Origin: Opeltia flavorubescens
Lineage: Eukaryota; Ascomycota; Lecanoromycetes; Teloschistales; Teloschistaceae
NCBI GenBank assembly: GCA_000442125.1
Contig: KE546976.1
Span: 1,426,001 to 1,490,000 of the forward strand
Direction of reading: 5' to 3'
DNA: 64,000 nt
Part shown: in pieces, positions 14,894 to 48,466 of the stretch
Layout of the letters: each line of letters starts with the position of its first letter
How positions within the stretch are numbered: position 1 is the first letter of the stretch
Made by a program: the position numbers and the translations under genes
The notes under the pieces: model-generated
What the model was told of the DNA's origin: nothing
What the model saw: only the letters and a program-made list of their open reading frames with translations
Databases searched by the model: none

Positions 14894-15755
14894 GGTATCG
14901 TTTGATAGAGTAAAGGTAGTGAAATCGAATCTCGGTGGGGCTTATCGATATAGATGTCGCAAGGTGATGGGAGATGGATGTCTCGGGACAAGACGGAGGC
15001 GAAGGTGACCAGGCAGTCCTGCAGGTAGATGTGATCGGTAGCAACTATACTTGAAATATGATATGTGAACCTTTGCAAGCACAAAGACAGTGTTGCAATC
15101 GGAAGAAAAAATCCTCGACATTTTGAGCCGCTTTCTGTTGTGCGTCACAAGCCAAGACTTCTTGCTGACTAATCGATTGTTCTTTGTTCCTTTCACTGAG
15201 TCCTACCCCTGAGCCCCTGAACCTAAGCTTTGTCCTTTTAGAATTCGTATATCGAATCAAGGCCTAACCAAAAAGCAAGCTGATATTGCGATGCAATGTG
15301 CCCGAATAACGATCATGCGAGGAGCGTATGTAAATGACATGGTGGACATCAAGAGCTCTTCCTACTGTTTGCTCTCATACGCATTTTTTTCCATTGGCAA
15401 ATGTTTGCTCCAATATCGAAACAGACAAGGTACGTAGATGGAGAATTGAGTCTCGTCATGATCACATTATGATTTATATACAGTATGACATCAATCATGC
15501 AATTTCGTGAAATGCGATTGCCCACGCCCAGCTCTTAAAGCATCACCCTAGTCCAGGATAGACTCAAGCTCTACATTTCCAGGTGATACCGCTTCGCGGA
15601 AGATTGTGTCGCCTTCGGCGAAAGATTGTAGCGCCTTGCGGCGCACAGGACATGAGGTGCTCAGGGGTTCGAAGGCGTTACCGCTTCGCGGAAGATACCG
15701 TCGCCTTCGGCGACATTGGAGCGCCTGACGGCGCTGAGGTAGTGGTCCGTCTGGA
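14894..15755. other. Intergenic with tandem hairpin elements
   Basis: The ARB1 promoter side and the 3' end of the NLR gene meet here. The distinct content is the doubled hairpin element at 15578-15736, which stops about 20 bp from the NLR stop codon. The rest is featureless. Confidence 0.6.
15578..15736 (+). repeat. GC-hairpin element, copies B1 and B2 in tandem
   Basis: B1 has stems at 15589-15599 (CCGC-TTC-GCGG), 15609-15621 (TCGCC-TTC-GGCGA) and 15631-15644 (GCGCC-TTGC-GGCGC). B2 has stems at 15681-15691, 15700-15714 (GTCGCC-TTC-GGCGAC) and 15720-15735 (AGCGCC-TGAC-GGCGCT). The linkers between stems (AAGATTGTGT, AAAGATTGTA, AAGATACC) are shared with other copies. A 36-nt unrelated stretch separates the two units. 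Confidence 0.9.
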
Positions 15756-18700
15756 CTATGATGATTCCAAGGTGCTCCAATCTGCCTCCGTTGTTATGTC
15801 ATATAAAAGTTGCATTTCACCTAATCGGTTATTGCATCTTCTTTGCCACTTGCTCTTTTGCTTAATCCAAGCGGACGTTCTAGTAAATGCAAGACTAACA
15901 TCGCCACACATGGATTCCAGTTGAGGGCCTCCCAAGACTGTAGACGCTTCAAGTGATTCCTGAAGCAGAGTCCTTGCGCATGGGTCAGAATACGGGACAG
16001 CATCAAAGAACTCCAACGGAGTGCCAAGCTGTAAATGGGTTTGGTTCGCTTGACAACCGTGTCGAAGAGCGACATCTACACAGTGATGATCACACACGGA
16101 AAAATATAAGACAGTGACACCATATTCATCTGCAATCGATACATCTGCTCCATTCTGTATCAAGAGCTCCATGCTTTGATGTCTGCATCGGGCGGCTGCA
16201 TAGTGGATTGGGATCCTTCCGTTTTCGTCGCGTACATTGACATCGAAGTCGATCTCAGGATGACACCGAAGATGTTGCAGCACTACCCTGAGCCGCGGCG
16301 AAGCAGTGACTGACATGTGAAGAAGATTTTCATTGGCCTTTCCACGGATGAAGATGTTGGCCCCACGGTCTAATAGTAAAGTAATGATATCGCCAAATTC
16401 TGTTCCTTCGGCTTTTTCCGATATACAATATTCCCAATTTTCGATACTCTCGCCATTCTCTTCCACATATTCGAACGAGGTAAATGGAGTGGTTGCAGCT
16501 TCCTCGAGTAATGTGATTACATCAACAGCATCCGACAGGTTGCGCTTGACTCCAATTGATTGATCGGCCCCCCGATTGAGAAGACACTGGACAGCATTGA
16601 ATTGACCATGGATGACAGCGGACCCCAAGGCTGTGCAAGTATAAACATCGGATAGTTGCTGCTCGCAATCGATATGGGCACCGCGATCAAGACTGTATTC
16701 AATAGCATCCAAATTCCCACTTGAGGCGGCAGCATGAAGAACATCGTTTAGTCTGCTGATGTTCTCATTGTTGTCGCAAGCCATGGATACATAGCGACAA
16801 ATGATAGCAGTGTTTCTGCGTGAAACGGCTGATTTCACTGTCTCTCGCGTGATGTGCTGATCACCTCCACGTAGCATCAGCATATCCACAATTTCATTCG
16901 CATTTCGATTGACACAGAGGTTCAACACTGCCGCGGAGTCAGGGAGGTCAAACTGGTCGCGCAGCGGTATCGGCCATTCGCTACTGATAAAAGGGTCAAG
17001 CCCAGCCTTGAGTAAGGCTTTTGCGATTGCTGGTTGTGCGGTAGATATAGCTTCTGAAAAGGCCTTGTACCATTGTACTTGAATTTGCGGTTTCTCATCA
17101 GGGGAAAAATCTGACTCTACAAGCTGACAGGCGGTCCTCTGGAGATGGAACGAAATAGCCACACGAACAGGGAACAAATCTTCATGGTTTTTCGGATATT
17201 TAGTGCTCCACACAACACGGGAGACTTGCGGAGACACCATGTGGGCATTATTTGAGAATGTGTTGGACTTCAAGAATGTGAAAATGATATCACCACAATT
17301 CTGCTCCGGCTCGCCACGGGCATGATCTGCCCAATGCGTTGCGGCATAATAAAGAAAGGGATAGTCTGACCGACGCTGATAAACTATGTTTCGGTATTCT
17401 TTTCTTTCCTGGTGTTTGAGATTGATAAACCATATATGATCAAGCTTATCATTAAAATCATCAAGACAGAGATACGTCAGACAGTACCTTGTCAGATGAG
17501 TAGGAGTTATCGTAAAGAGACGACCATGATGATTTTGGAAAAATTCATGAGTTGTAGAATGCACGAGCCTAACAAAATGACTATGCTGTTCAACAATGAC
17601 GAGACCCTGGCATGCGTGGATGATATCGTTGATCGATGTCACCCCTTCAGATTCAAAGCTTTTGTCTCCTGGTCGGACTGCAAGAGCATGGCATAATTCC
17701 TCAACTTTAAGATGTCGGCATGCATGATAAACCCAAGAGACGGTCTGTTGAGCGATGGCTTTAGAACGCGACTCTTGTTCCAAGATTCGACCCCATTCTT
17801 TCTCGTATTGCTGATCTATCGTATCCGGCAGCTCTTGTAGCGCTTGACGTAAGTCTCTGATGTTGTGGATCGATGATAATGACTTTATATGCAGCTCGGC
17901 GATCAAGAACATTCCTTTAGCTTTTGAAACAATTTTTTCGACCACCATGTTTTGAAGATCTTGGTGTTTCATCACTTCCTGCCTTACACTCAGTCCAAAC
18001 GCTTGTCCGGATAAAATGCGTTGCTGAACAACAGACATGATCTCATCGTCGGAGGCCGTAATATCAACATAAGTGGCGTTGAAGTATCGATCCCTTTGAC
18101 GTGAGGTGATAATGACGGATAGTTTACATCTCGATCTCTCCAAGAGTACTTTGATTGATCGCATAAATCGCGTTTGGCTTTCCATGTTTGTATACTCATC
18201 GAGGCCATCGATTAGGATATAAGCCTTTTCAAGTCTGGCAATTGCCTCTTGGATGACAGATTGAATATCACTGATGTCAGGTCTGGTTCTACGTCGTGTA
18301 TTGATCTGATAGAAACGATCCATGTAGGAAGGGACAGTTTCGTCTTCATGCGTAAGATGAAATTCTGGCCATACGCTTGCTAGTAGATTCTCCGGTGACT
18401 GATCATCCTTTTGTTGAATGTCACAGTAGATGCAAGCGATACCACATTTAGCTGTAGGCGGCCGGATCGAACGAAGACGTTCATAGATCATCGAACTATT
18501 CAAAGGTCAACGATCGGAGCGTAGACGGGAAGACATGGGAATGGGAACTAACACGAGAACTGTCTTACCACAGCCAGCTAGAAATGAAGATCAGAATGTA
18601 ATCAAGAATAAATAACAAAAGTCGTCATACCTGTCCCCTGACACCACAAGATATTAATATCACCCCTTTCCCAGCTTTCGTACTGGTTCAAGCTGAAAAA

Positions 18701-18943
18701 GCTTTCTTTGCTGGTAGCATACTCGGATTTATAGACATCCTTTTGTCTTTGAGAAAAGCTCAATGGTGAGAACCACTCGGTGATTATCTGGAGTCGCGAC
18801 TGATGACCTGAAGTGAAATATTAGACATGTGAGAGTCCAAACCTTGGATGATACTATATACCTCCGAAGTTGTACTGTTGGCCAATCTGAAAGCCCCCTA
18901 GATTCGCCCCCGATAACTTATATTGTGTTGATGGGTCCGCCAT
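15756..18943 (-). CDS. NACHT-ankyrin NLR with short N-terminal motif
   Basis: A fungal STAND NTPase receptor of the NLR type, about 1007 aa. Exons: 18943-18862, 18807-18631, 18577-18553 and 18495-15756. The first 36 residues hold only a short Gly/Gln/Asn motif with NLGGFQIGQQYNFGGHQ. Next is the standard pre-NACHT linker (WFSPLSFSQRQKDVYKS, then INILWCQGT), Walker A GTAGCGKTVLV formed over two splices, and Walker B AYILIDGLDEY. A winged-helix-like segment follows (TVSWVYHACRHLKVEELCHA). The C-terminal half carries ankyrin repeats, for example DENGRIPIHYAAARCRHQSM and HAAASSGNLDAIEYSLDRGA. The short amyloid-type N-terminus suggests it nucleates a partner in trans. The 25-nt third exon is small, but it restores the P-loop exactly. 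The partner is probably the divergent hydrolase 583 bp away. Confidence 0.88.
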
Positions 18944-19525
18944 GTAGAATGGTAGGAAAGCTCATACGAGAATATCAAGTAGGAAAACCCATTGAAATAC
19001 TTGATTCTGTCCATGTAGCTGAATCTAGGTTTGCTGAAGTCCAAGAAAAGATCGGAAAAGGTCCATTACATGAAGACGGATGCTGATTGCCGGATTTGCA
19101 TGACCCAATTGATTTGGTCGCGCACGTCACCAAACCGACCATGGCGGTGTCCACGTAGACTCATGCTATGCCAGCTCAAGTCCCTCAAGCGACAGCGGAT
19201 TCGGAACCATTCTGAGCCTATAGTTGAAGGTTTCTGTAGACCGACTTTTCGGGAACCGGCGTTGAAGACTGGGATCCACCAAACGTGAAATGTTGTCTGC
19301 AGTATTTCCTTATTTGTTAACGTTACACCATCTTCCGCGCGGTCAGTTCTTCCCATGATTCAACGGTAGCTCGCATGTGATGGATTCTGCACTGCCAGCA
19401 AGAAAGGCCAGGTGACTTCATTCGTTTGCGTATTGATATCCATCTTGTGATATTAATCCCAACATCCCGTCCCCGCCTTACAGGTCCTATACCTTTTCCT
19501 ATCATCTTTAGAAATCCGATTAAAT
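18944..19525. promoter_or_regulatory. Bidirectional promoter of the NLR/hydrolase pair
   Basis: 582 bp between two divergent starts. No open frame here resembles a gene. Sharing one promoter region would allow the receptor and its putative effector to be co-expressed; no specific operator was identified. Confidence 0.5.
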
Positions 19526-20722
19526 ATGGCCACAGAGTTCAAGGACGAGACGGGAGCTGAAACACTTTATACACCTGATCGCGCTGTCGTTGAGTTGGTG
19601 TCCCGTTGAAGGAATAAGTCCATGACTGATTCTCGATAGCATTTGCTTCGTACATGGACTTGGTGGTGGCCGAGTCTCCACCTGGACCAAAGGCAAGGTA
19701 CTCTGGCCTTACAATCTACTAGCAAGGGATATCCCAGACGCTCGTGTCATCACTTGGGGATACCATGCGGACATTGCACATTTCCTGGCCCCAATATCAA
19801 CAAATACAGTCAGAGATCATGCTAAGAGCCTATCCAATGCTTTGGATGGGTTGAGAAACTCACCGGAGACTTCCACACGTCCCATCATTTTCGTTGCTCA
19901 TAGTCTTGGTGGTATCGTTTGTGCTCAGGTTAGTTCTCGTATAGAACGTTGCAACAACCGTTGTTGATCACCAGCAGAGTCTGCTTCAAGCGTCTTCAAC
20001 CGGATCTGATGAGAGCGGGAAGCTTTCAGACACCACGAGTGGCCTGGTGTTCATGGGTACTCCTTTCGAGGGTTCAGATGCGACCAAGTGGGCCACATTC
20101 TTCCAAAAGGTGTCACAATTGCTGCATTTGGGGACAGTCAACAAATCACTCTTAGAGGATTTAGAAAAGGATTCCCACGAACTCAAAGTCTTGGGCGAAG
20201 ATTTTCCCAAATGGCTGAATGGACGAAACCACTCCAAAGAGAAGAAAGTCCGAGTCATGTGCTTTTTTGAAGAGTTTCCCAGTCCAGCTGTCGACCACGT
20301 AGTAACTCGTGATTCGGCAAAAATTGCAGGTTATGATGCTGTTTCTCTGCCCAGCGATCACTGTGGGATCTGCAAATTCGACAACTTCGAAGACCCGAAG
20401 TACAAGACCGTTCTGGAAACATTGAGAAAATGGGTAGATGAGATTAAGGATGCCAACAAAAGCAAGGAGACCAAGGACGTGAGTCATTCCTCGATATACC
20501 AATAGAAGAAGATACTGATGACAATCGAAGAAAGCAACCTTCCAAGCTGATAATACCAACATGGGCAAGAATTTTGGGGGGTCACAAACGATACAGGATG
20601 TTTCTCATGGCAAGAAAGAGCATATTGAGAGCAAGTTTGTCAGTACTTCTGCATTAGTTGAGATAATGAGAAGCTGAACATGACAACAGAGCTTTGGATC
20701 CAAGAATCCTGACTGGGATTAA
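19526..20722 (+). CDS. SesB-like alpha/beta hydrolase with C-terminal motif
   Basis: A lipase-type serine hydrolase of the SesB group, known as effectors of fungal NLRs. Exons: 19526-19593, 19640-19928, 19978-20478, 20531-20638 and 20690-20722, about 332 aa. Oxyanion-side motif DICFVHGLGGG is completed by the first splice; the nucleophile elbow is FVAHSLGG (about residue 112), with GLVFMGTPF after it. The catalytic His lies in LPSDHCGICKF, as usual for the group. The catalytic domain ends at about residue 285. The C-terminal exons add a Gly/Asn/Gln segment with NTNMGKNFGGSQTIQDV. The first donor (GTTGGT) is weak but required to make the conserved Asp. The last joint is uncertain: a GTTTGT donor at 20635 would instead open a longer frame to 20888. 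No signal peptide. Confidence 0.82.
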
Positions 20723-29634: not shown

Positions 29635-30244
29635 GTCACAGCGGCCCGGATCCTATACGATGGGTTTTACCGCTTCGCGGAAGATTGTGTCGCCTACGGC
29701 GAAAGATTGTATCGCTTCGCGATGGAGATGTTTAAACTCTCGACTTCCAGGTGCGACCGCTTCGCGGAAGGTACTGTCGCCTTCGGCGAAAGATTGCTGC
29801 GCCTGACGGCGCTGGAGGTTCTTGTCCTACCGAGATCGACCTGTCAATCGATCTGCCGAAAACAAGGCTGTCGGTCTATCAAGCAGACCAATAGCGGAAG
29901 CAATGGAAGAACTGTGGCTTCTGATTGATGCATGCTGCCAGGCAGCAGTGGTCTAGGCTAGCTCGATATGGGATGGACGCGTTTTTATGGCGAGGCTGTT
30001 TTGTGGTGGGGCATGGAGCTGTGTAAGATCAATGGCACTCTACAGCCTGATAGACCCCACCATATAACCAGTCATCTCACTCTTTCATCTTGTTTCTCTT
30101 TCTAAGCTGATTCAATTGCCTTGACTGCTTCGATTGACTACACGTGAAAAACATCGCTCAACGGCCAGAACTTGATTCGAGCTTGTTGATTGCTTTACCC
30201 ATCTATAGCCCTGTCTCTTTTGTTAGCCTTGTCAGATAGAAAGT
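29635..30244. other. Intergenic with tandem hairpin elements
   Basis: It contains copies C1 and C2 of the hairpin family just after CCL1. The remainder is the promoter of the AAA gene with no other repeat. A plus frame at 29707-29928 is generated by the hairpin sequence itself (RFAEGTVAFGE) and is rejected. Confidence 0.6.
29668..29813 (+). repeat. GC-hairpin element, copies C1 and C2 in tandem
   Basis: C1: CCGC-TTC-GCGG (29670-29680), TCGCC-TAC-GGCGA (29690-29702) and ATCGC-TTC-GCGAT (29711-29723). C2: CCGC-TTC-GCGG (29757-29767), TCGCC-TTC-GGCGA (29777-29789) and GCGCC-TGAC-GGCGC (29799-29812), opening with CCAGGTGCGA as in copy D. The third stem of C1 differs from all others but keeps full pairing on both arms, a hint of conservation by structure. 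Confidence 0.9.
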
Positions 30245-48024: not shown

Positions 48025-48466
48025 GAATCCATGAGCCATGTTTGATGTACATGTGTAGGGTATATTAAGTATGATTACGAACATATACGATAGATCAGAA
48101 ATATGTATGTCAAAGATGTTTGATACATACGGAAATAAATTCCTAGATCATATACAGTGTCTCGAATTCAAACTCGGCGAATAGCATATCTGCCAATCAG
48201 GAACGTGAAACCTTTTCATTACCCAAGACTTGTTTTCATGTTTCCTTCCTTTCATTTCTTTTCTTTTCGTTCCATTCGATAACTTGTCTTCCAGGTGCGA
48301 CCGCTTCGCGGAATATACTGTTCGCCTTCGGCGAAAAGATACCAGCGCCTTGCGGCGCGAGCGGACGCCTGACGGCGTCTCCCATACAAAACCAATCCGT
48401 CCAAACCCCCTCATCAAGGAAAACACCCACCTACCCCCATCATCCTCTTCCCTTTCACACACACCC
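48025..48466. other. Convergent 3' intergenic with hairpin element
   Basis: The spacer between two stop codons contains copy D. A plus-strand frame (48230-48661) and two minus frames run through the hairpins and are rejected as genes. Confidence 0.6.
48290..48381 (+). repeat. Four-hairpin GC element, copy D
   Basis: CCGC-TTC-GCGG (48301-48311), TTCGCC-TTC-GGCGAA (48321-48335), GCGCC-TTGC-GGCGC (48345-48358) and GACGCC-TGAC-GGCGTC (48364-48379). Same order as copy A, 45 kb away, and preceded by CCAGGTGCGA. Confidence 0.92.

Follow-up and report, generated by a model that had tools for sequence, protein, structure and literature searches.

Matched ends of a divergent NLR/SesB-type hydrolase gene pair in Opeltia flavorubescens suggest a further family of amyloid signaling motifs

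Introduction

Two divergently oriented genes of Opeltia flavorubescens, a fungus that is probably lichen-forming, one encoding a NOD-like receptor (NLR) with a NACHT domain and ankyrin repeats (minus strand) and the other a SesB-type alpha/beta hydrolase (plus strand), raise the question of whether they form a receptor and its effector and, if so, by which element the two are connected. The pair occupies positions 15756-20722 of a 64,000-nucleotide stretch of contig KE546976.1 (assembly GCA_000442125.1, positions 1,426,001 to 1,490,000; hereafter the window, all of it), which was placed on contig C12 of the 34.4-Mb genome (G000). In our assessment it is highly probable that the NLR and the hydrolase are a receptor and its effector, linked through a common short amyloid signaling motif, G-x-N-[YFL]-G-G-x-[QN]-x-G-Q (GxNxGGxQxGQ). 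The best reading of the sequence comparisons is that this motif represents a new family of NLR-associated amyloid signaling motifs, set apart from the PP, sigma, PUASM and GDQN patterns. The novelty is that of a motif family inside a known kind of system, and not of a new kind of system. The case is built from sequence-based observations, namely the gene structures and domains, a matched and conserved motif that lies in stretches predicted to be unfolded, the adjacency of the two genes in several species, and the presence in this genome of a second pair carrying its own matched variant.

Results and Discussion

Gene models and the two ends

The NLR model has four exons (18943-18862, 18807-18631, 18577-18553 and 18495-15756, minus strand) and encodes 1007 amino acids (aa), over all of which it is identical to the database protein P0121. 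Pfam matches were obtained for NPHP3_N (1.1e-24), NACHT (1.9e-8), GPIID_WHD (1.7e-6) and Ank_2 (4.5e-21), and none ahead of the NACHT region, where a short leader (MADPSTQYKLSGANLGGFQIGQQYNFGGHQSRLQ) stands in place of an effector domain. In the AlphaFold2 (AF2) model, the predicted local distance difference test score (pLDDT) is below 50 for residues 1-29 and the first helix starts at residue 32, so that the leader of ~30 residues is predicted to be unfolded. The initial annotation had described a receptor with a minimal N-terminus carrying NLGGFQ and NFGGHQ, and both strings are indeed present in the leader, the motif stretch of which reads ...LSGANLGGFQIGQQYNFGG.... Since NFGGHQ straddles intron 1 and is missing from the leaders of all five other species compared, only NLGGFQ counts; the idea that NFGGHQ is a second copy of the shared motif was dropped and the string rejected as a relevant element.

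The hydrolase model has five exons on the plus strand (19526-19593, 19640-19928, 19978-20478, 20531-20638 and 20690-20722). Its Abhydrolase_6 match (1.3e-5) barely passes the cut-off, and the AF2 model of the homolog P0002 resembles solved lipases and esterases with E-values to 1e-6 and modest TM-scores of ~0.4; in the same model the tail (residues 305-350) is of low confidence and unfolded. The window hydrolase ends in ...NTNMGKNFGGSQTIQDVSHGKKEHIESKFSFGSKNPDWD, and the last splice is supported by the similar ends of some database homologs (SFHFGSKDVGD, KFNFASKDDDDE). The string NFGGSQ, previously located in the C-terminal exons of a divergent SesB-like hydrolase, was recovered in the modelled tail, where the motif stretch is ...NMGKNFGGSQTIQDVSHG.... 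Comparison of the two ends confirms the earlier proposal that a motif is shared; N-[FL]-G-G-x-Q belongs to a longer unit with another frame (GxNxGGxQxGQ).

Conservation and adjacency in other species

The named proteins among the best 12 hydrolase and best 14 NLR matches come from lichen fungi, mainly Teloschistaceae (Lecanoromycetes), according to the taxonomy looked up for four genera and Heterodermia. Six of the 14 close NLR homologs (P0121-P0134) include a leader, one of them being the window's own P0121, and the motif is found in 6/6, that is, in every one of the five homologs from other species with a predicted leader, where it takes the form G-x-[NSK]-[LF]-G-G-T-Q-I-G-Q-Q. Across these six sequences (window plus five species), residues 12-23 form an island with a mean pairwise identity of 81%, versus 26% for residues 1-11 and 38% for residues 24-34. 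Of the hydrolase homologs, 15 share 50% identity or more (P0001-P0012, P0019, P0030 and P0033). Eight of these carry the motif, six as GKNYGG[IT]QTGQD and the remaining two as GKNYGGSQTGDD (P0008) and GNSYGGTMTGQD (P0004); three of the eight (P0003, P0006 and P0030) are all from Flavoplaca and share the same motif.

Hydrolase and NLR carry consecutive locus tags, on contigs of equal listed size, in four species of Teloschistaceae (Table 1). Together with a second pair in the O. flavorubescens genome, on contig C14 (see below), Flavoplaca limonia and Gallowayella concinna provide the three further pairs of which both ends could be read, and in all three the ends are alike. Pairs with unlike segments, which the initial annotation had named as evidence against it, were thus not what these readable pairs offered. 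The same motif is therefore seen at the N-terminus of the NLR and at the C-terminus of the effector of adjacent genes in the window, in F. limonia, in G. concinna and in C14.

Outside this group, the SesB homolog P0013 of Trematosphaeria pertusa (Dothideomycetes) has GPNYGGFMVGQSD in its tail (residues 301-313), hinting that the range of the motif may be wider than the lichen class. A different common tail, approximately GNVDNRGVxNNGGVVMGNAY...ITGSVxYYG by eye, was noticed in the SesB homologs P0018, P0020, P0022, P0026-P0029, P0050 and P0052 and is perhaps another signaling motif.

Further pairs and SesB loci in the same genome

The C14 pair (locus L029) is likewise a divergent NACHT-ankyrin NLR and SesB pair, with the winged helix and ankyrin repeats in the next frame. 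Its NLR starts with MAKNNTSVTLITGNNYGGQNTGQVNAAD and its SesB ends in ...HTSISGANYGGMNTGQLNASGGSFTLGVPPK; with 10/13 residues identical, it is a better matched variant than the window pair. Searched against the whole genome, the C14 tail matched three places, that is, itself, a protein on C6 (E 4e-4) and the leader of the adjacent NLR (E 0.0046). The pattern N[YF]GGx[QKNH]xGQ has the same distribution, with three matches in 34.4 Mb (the C14 pair and the C6 protein) versus none for the reversed pattern, and when the center is left unconstrained the same three matches are obtained versus one in the reversed control. The shorter GGxQxGQ has 17 matches versus seven in the reversed control, one being the window NLR and another belonging to locus L043, where the reading frame ends directly after the match. 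Against the protein database, the C14 hydrolase tail brought up one candidate but no hit with an E-value of 10 or less, a miss that says little on distribution because the search depends on shared exact words.

The C6 protein (L049; G000:C6:1660000-1665500, minus strand, start codon 2993) is intronless, 411 aa long, and contains two motif copies, STFSGANYGGFNSGQMN and GTFSGPNYGGIRIGVDE. Its C-terminus has pentapeptide-like repeats (PF13599, 1e-6, 29.1 bits, below the cut-off of 38). It may possibly be a third component.

In a third divergent pair, on C7 (L042), the partner of SesB is an NLR-like protein containing TPR repeats. PP motifs are present at both ends of this pair and are the only two matches to PF17046 in the search of the 34.4-Mb genome. 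Pfam assigns TPR repeats and DUF7779 to the NLR-like protein, its apparent NB-ARC character was recognized by eye, and its PP motif was located on the strand, the leader exon being outside the predicted model. This PP pair is a natural orthogonal control in the same genome.

Considering ten predicted SesB loci including the window (SesB matches on C9, C11, C2 and a second place on C13 are outside this count), three are divergent pairs, all three with matched ends. In another three (L036 on C13, L038 on C12 and L048 on C8), SesB is immediately followed by a NACHT match in the same orientation, and in the remaining four no NLR was seen within ~5 kb by the queries used. The former three are apparently fused SesB-NACHT receptors, which would be an in-cis version of the same wiring; in L036, the SesB and NACHT matches are both in frames of 708 aa. 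As an effector domain, the SesB-type hydrolase of the window is thus of a kind already known to accompany NLRs. Upstream of position 4618 of L030 (G000:C5), one of the closest NLR paralogs was observed in which, by eye from the frames, a long helical-looking N-terminal region seems to replace the motif leader.

Strength of the match and points to be weighed

The resemblance of the two ends was evaluated with a profile made from the leaders of the five other species, the window being excluded. In a scan of 86,963 13-mers, taken from the other fetched proteins (of 170) and the two modelled hydrolases, the top 11/11 peptides were hydrolase tails, with the window tail in 10th place at 16.2 bits; rank 11, a Lecanora tail, scored 14.2 bits, barely above the first non-tail site at 14.0. 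Applied to the six reading frames of the window (76,924 stop-free 13-mers), the same profile placed the NLR leader first at 32.2 bits and the hydrolase tail second at 16.2 bits, ahead of a third site at 13.4 bits. The initial annotation is supported in its central claim of an NLR/effector pair with matching motifs at opposite ends. In pairwise shuffling, p was 0.0012 for Flavoplaca, and for Gallowayella and C14 none of 5000 shuffles (0/5000) reached the score.

Several observations weigh against this wiring, many of them concerning the window pair itself. Aligned directly, its two ends show weak similarity (shuffle p 0.013). This value, and the short and composition-biased nature of the segments, would agree with a resemblance by coincidence between disordered termini rich in Gly, Asn and Gln; that explanation is set against the ranks obtained with the foreign-NLR profile, the C14 pair, the conservation island and the match counts of N[YF]GGx[QKNH]xGQ in forward and reversed form, and, as homologous pairs carry matched ends, it is largely refuted and retains a very slight probability. 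Also on the negative side, the window NLR scores 31 with its own tail and is better matched by seven of the eight other tails. The window tail has I in place of the G of its homologs and is called a diverged copy because QTIQ replaces QTGQ. Neither window end fits N[YF]GGx[QKNH]xGQ, the NLR having L for Y/F and the hydrolase I for G. In whole-genome searches with the two window peptides, each matched itself alone; the Gallowayella leader used in the same way had zero matches and missed even the window NLR, and such short-query misses are for this reason uninformative. A check for co-variation among the orthologous pairs revealed none: of four pairs, only C14 prefers its own partner by score.

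Likewise, the terminal segments are lacking in 8/14 close NLR homologs, which begin downstream of the leader, and in 7/15 close hydrolase predictions, which stop or diverge near the motif. Judging from the predicted proteins, we take both for an annotation effect. As an example, P0005 and P0010 agree at 167/168 positions up to the tail junction, beyond which only P0010 has the tail, and because of this agreement an unspliced intron in the P0005 prediction is suggested. In Heterodermia, the hydrolase (Q9195_005472) and the NLR (Q9195_001648) have distant tags and lie on unequal contigs, so either linkage is not universal or the two homologs are not partners. Finally, oligomerization, the amyloid fold, templating, enzyme activation and cell death are steps that we infer.

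The nature of the contact between the two ends has to be considered as well. The effector and NLR copies differ systematically (mostly QTGQD versus QIGQQ), and amyloid templating and peptide docking are indistinguishable by sequence alone; both points would suit a non-amyloid docking peptide by which the NLR attracts the hydrolase through heterotypic binding or co-aggregation. Docking of this kind appears improbable given that G/N/Q make up 42-53% of the four motif segments, with 0-2 charged residues, that polarity and gene layout equal those of proven amyloid pairs, and that the C14 ends are as alike as homotypic stacking predicts.

Proposed mechanism and significance

For a shared amyloid motif, the mechanism can be drawn by analogy with the NWD2/HET-S system, which serves as template (PubMed Central [PMC] article PMC5485727). 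The ankyrin repeats of the NLR would sense a cue, upon which the NACHT domain would oligomerize and bring the disordered leaders together. The GxNxGGxQxGQ segments of the leaders could then nucleate a cross-beta stack, onto which the matching segment of the flexible hydrolase tail would be templated. The clustered hydrolase would thereby become active as a lipase/esterase, with cell death in defense or allorecognition as the probable outcome.

More tentatively, and with somewhat less confidence than an even chance would warrant, we envisage a further amyloid family found so far mainly in lichen-forming fungi, with at least two insulated channels (the window one Q-centered, that of C14 N-centered) beside PP. 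In this view, the non-NLR C6 protein, which combines two copies of the motif with pentapeptide-like repeats, could serve the N-centered channel as an amplifier, a scaffold or a decoy. A further motif family that exists in two diverged versions next to a PP pair within one genome would offer a natural test of pathway insulation and would be a lead to lichen immunity or allorecognition. In a search of open-licence PMC articles on lichens with NLR, NACHT and incompatibility, none of the 15 titles listed, out of 197 articles, has lichen NLRs as its subject.

Features of the locus and related positions

Table 1. Coordinates and locus tags of the features discussed (window positions unless a genome locus or locus tag is given)
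Feature	Location	Strand	Basis or remark
NLR gene: short leader, NACHT (NPHP3_N), winged helix, ankyrin repeats	15756..18943	-	Predicted model, Pfam, P0121
NACHT P-loop GTAGCGKT, interrupted by intron 2 (18637-18631 + 18577-18561)	18561..18637	-	
NLR leader motif GANLGGFQIGQQY, residues 12-24	18872..18910	-	Conservation island and low pLDDT
Intergenic region, 582 bp, between the two divergent start codons	18944..19525	.	Gene models
SesB-type alpha/beta hydrolase, 332 aa, with C-terminal tail	19526..20722	+	Predicted model, Abhydrolase_6, AF2 of homolog
Predicted nucleophile Ser111 in AHSLGG	19902..19904	+	Nearly invariant position, alignment of 44 homologs
Predicted catalytic His247 (SDHCGICKF)	20359..20361	+	Nearly invariant His, alignment of 44 homologs
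Hydrolase tail motif GKNFGGSQTIQDV, residues 298-310	20564..20602	+	Second best of the window peptides, foreign-NLR profile
Xanthocarpia ochracea pair	tags 002007/002008		Leader and tail missing from predictions
Blastenia crenularia pair	tags 001287/001286		Tail missing from prediction
Flavoplaca limonia pair	tags 003183/003182		Both ends readable
Gallowayella concinna pair	tags 003668/003669		Both ends readable
C7 PP motifs (L042, G000:C7)	1536907-1536981, 1534973-1535020	+, -	PF17046
Palindrome-like word clusters	2699-2755, 15590-15734, 29671-29812, 48302-48357, 57386, 57504	+	

Apart from the gene pair, short GC-rich palindrome-like words (CGCTTCGCGG, GCCTTCGGCG, GCCTTGCGGC) are clustered on the plus strand of the window, with 15 occurrences versus one in ~202 kb of other loci of the same genome.

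Comparison with known amyloid motif families

The named fungal amyloid signaling families are HRAM, sigma, PP and PUASM 1-2 (PMC12261475, PMC9815663, PMC3321046), to which a provisional GDQN motif can be added (PMC12261475). In the latter source, one matched NLR/effector pair is called a bona fide motif, and by this standard the new motif qualifies, since its matched pairs number more than one. A search with profiles of known motifs had been proposed in the initial annotation, which considered the motif either diverged or a new class, and the outcome agrees with that view: the PP and sigma profiles of Pfam match their controls and 0/7 new-motif peptides, and no published pattern with which the motif was compared (sigma, PP, PUASM and GDQN) describes it. 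The comparison covers these four, with PUASM 2 and the orphan motifs of PMC9815663 (Wojciechowski 2022; NLR19, NLR34, NLR39 and others) being outside it, and the motif may be identical with one of these orphans.

In detail, PF17046, the PP profile described as "misnamed SesB" (PMC12261475), found none of the seven peptides at E up to 10, with 6e-8 and 1.9e-5 for the C7 controls. PF17106 (NACHT_sigma) likewise found none of the seven, with 5e-16 for a control sigma tail (P0039), and across this genome it had no match at E up to 10. PF11558 (HET-s repeat) had no match among the seven peptides in a run without a positive control for that family, and a search of solved structures with the motif alignment returned nothing at E up to 10. 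With respect to RHIM, the NLR copies read G-[TF]-Q-I-G and the tails mostly G-[IST]-Q-T-G, and there was no Pfam match, again without a positive control; PF12721 is the profile that we take to be that of RHIM. A profile of all 16 sites, run on 266 kb (window and loci), scored highest at the four training sites of the two pairs (37-38 bits) and at the two untrained copies of the C6 protein (31 and 24 bits), the next site having 11.4 bits; the two C7 PP motifs scored about -1 bit.

The pseudopalindrome NxGxQxGxN of PP (PMC9815663) was tried and rejected, the six NLR leaders having [NSK]-x-G-G-x-Q-x-G-Q and the tails a near-identical spacing. Sigma, defined by three A/B submotifs in 25-27 aa (PMC3321046), was also rejected, as one unit only and no PF17106 match are found here. 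By eye, neither PUASM (FxGxGxQxxGxGxF, with PNP_UDP effectors; PMC9815663) nor GDQN (NxxxGxQYxxxGxGDQNxVSxxxxQxN, with SesA; PMC12261475) fits.

The motif could nevertheless be a degenerate PP/RHIM-type motif or a single-unit sigma, with the same wiring. The NLR core G-x-Q-I-G recalls, as a possible distant kinship, the G-phi-Q-phi-G core common to PP and RHIM (PMC7885112), and GGTQ occurs within sigma submotif B (PMC3321046). On the other hand, PF17046 recognizes both C7 ends and PF17106 the sigma tail only, PP motifs fall far below the six new-motif sites (24-38 bits, four of them training sites) on the new profile, and NxGxQxGxN differs in spacing from N-x-G-G-x-Q-x-G-Q, the center of which may also be N or M. 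We regard such a derivation as rather unlikely, at about one-in-four strength, and retain a separate motif family as the best reading.

Among the closest known systems, the PP pairs (HELLP/SBP/PNT1; PF17046) likewise combine a SesB-type lipase effector carrying a C-terminal motif with an N-terminal motif of the NLR and adjacent genes, and share the G-x-Q-x-G core, here in the NLR copies. The new motif differs in lacking a PF17046 match, in the spacing of N, in GG before and GQ after the center, and in a center that is Q and also N (or M); moreover, a PP pair coexists at C7. With sigma (sesA/sesB/het-eN; PF17106) it has in common the SesB effector, the NACHT-ankyrin NLR, a G/N/Q-rich motif and the GGTQ string, whereas sigma has three A/B submotifs and the present motif one unit. 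PUASM and GDQN are similar in their matched, Gly/Gln-rich NLR and effector termini and different in their effectors (PNP_UDP and SesA, respectively) and in their patterns. Finally, NWD2/HET-S (HRAM) has the same transfer from receptor to effector, from the N-terminus of the NLR to the C-terminus of the effector, and adjacent genes, with a HeLo pore former in place of the lipase proposed here and a 21-aa beta-solenoid repeat as its motif.

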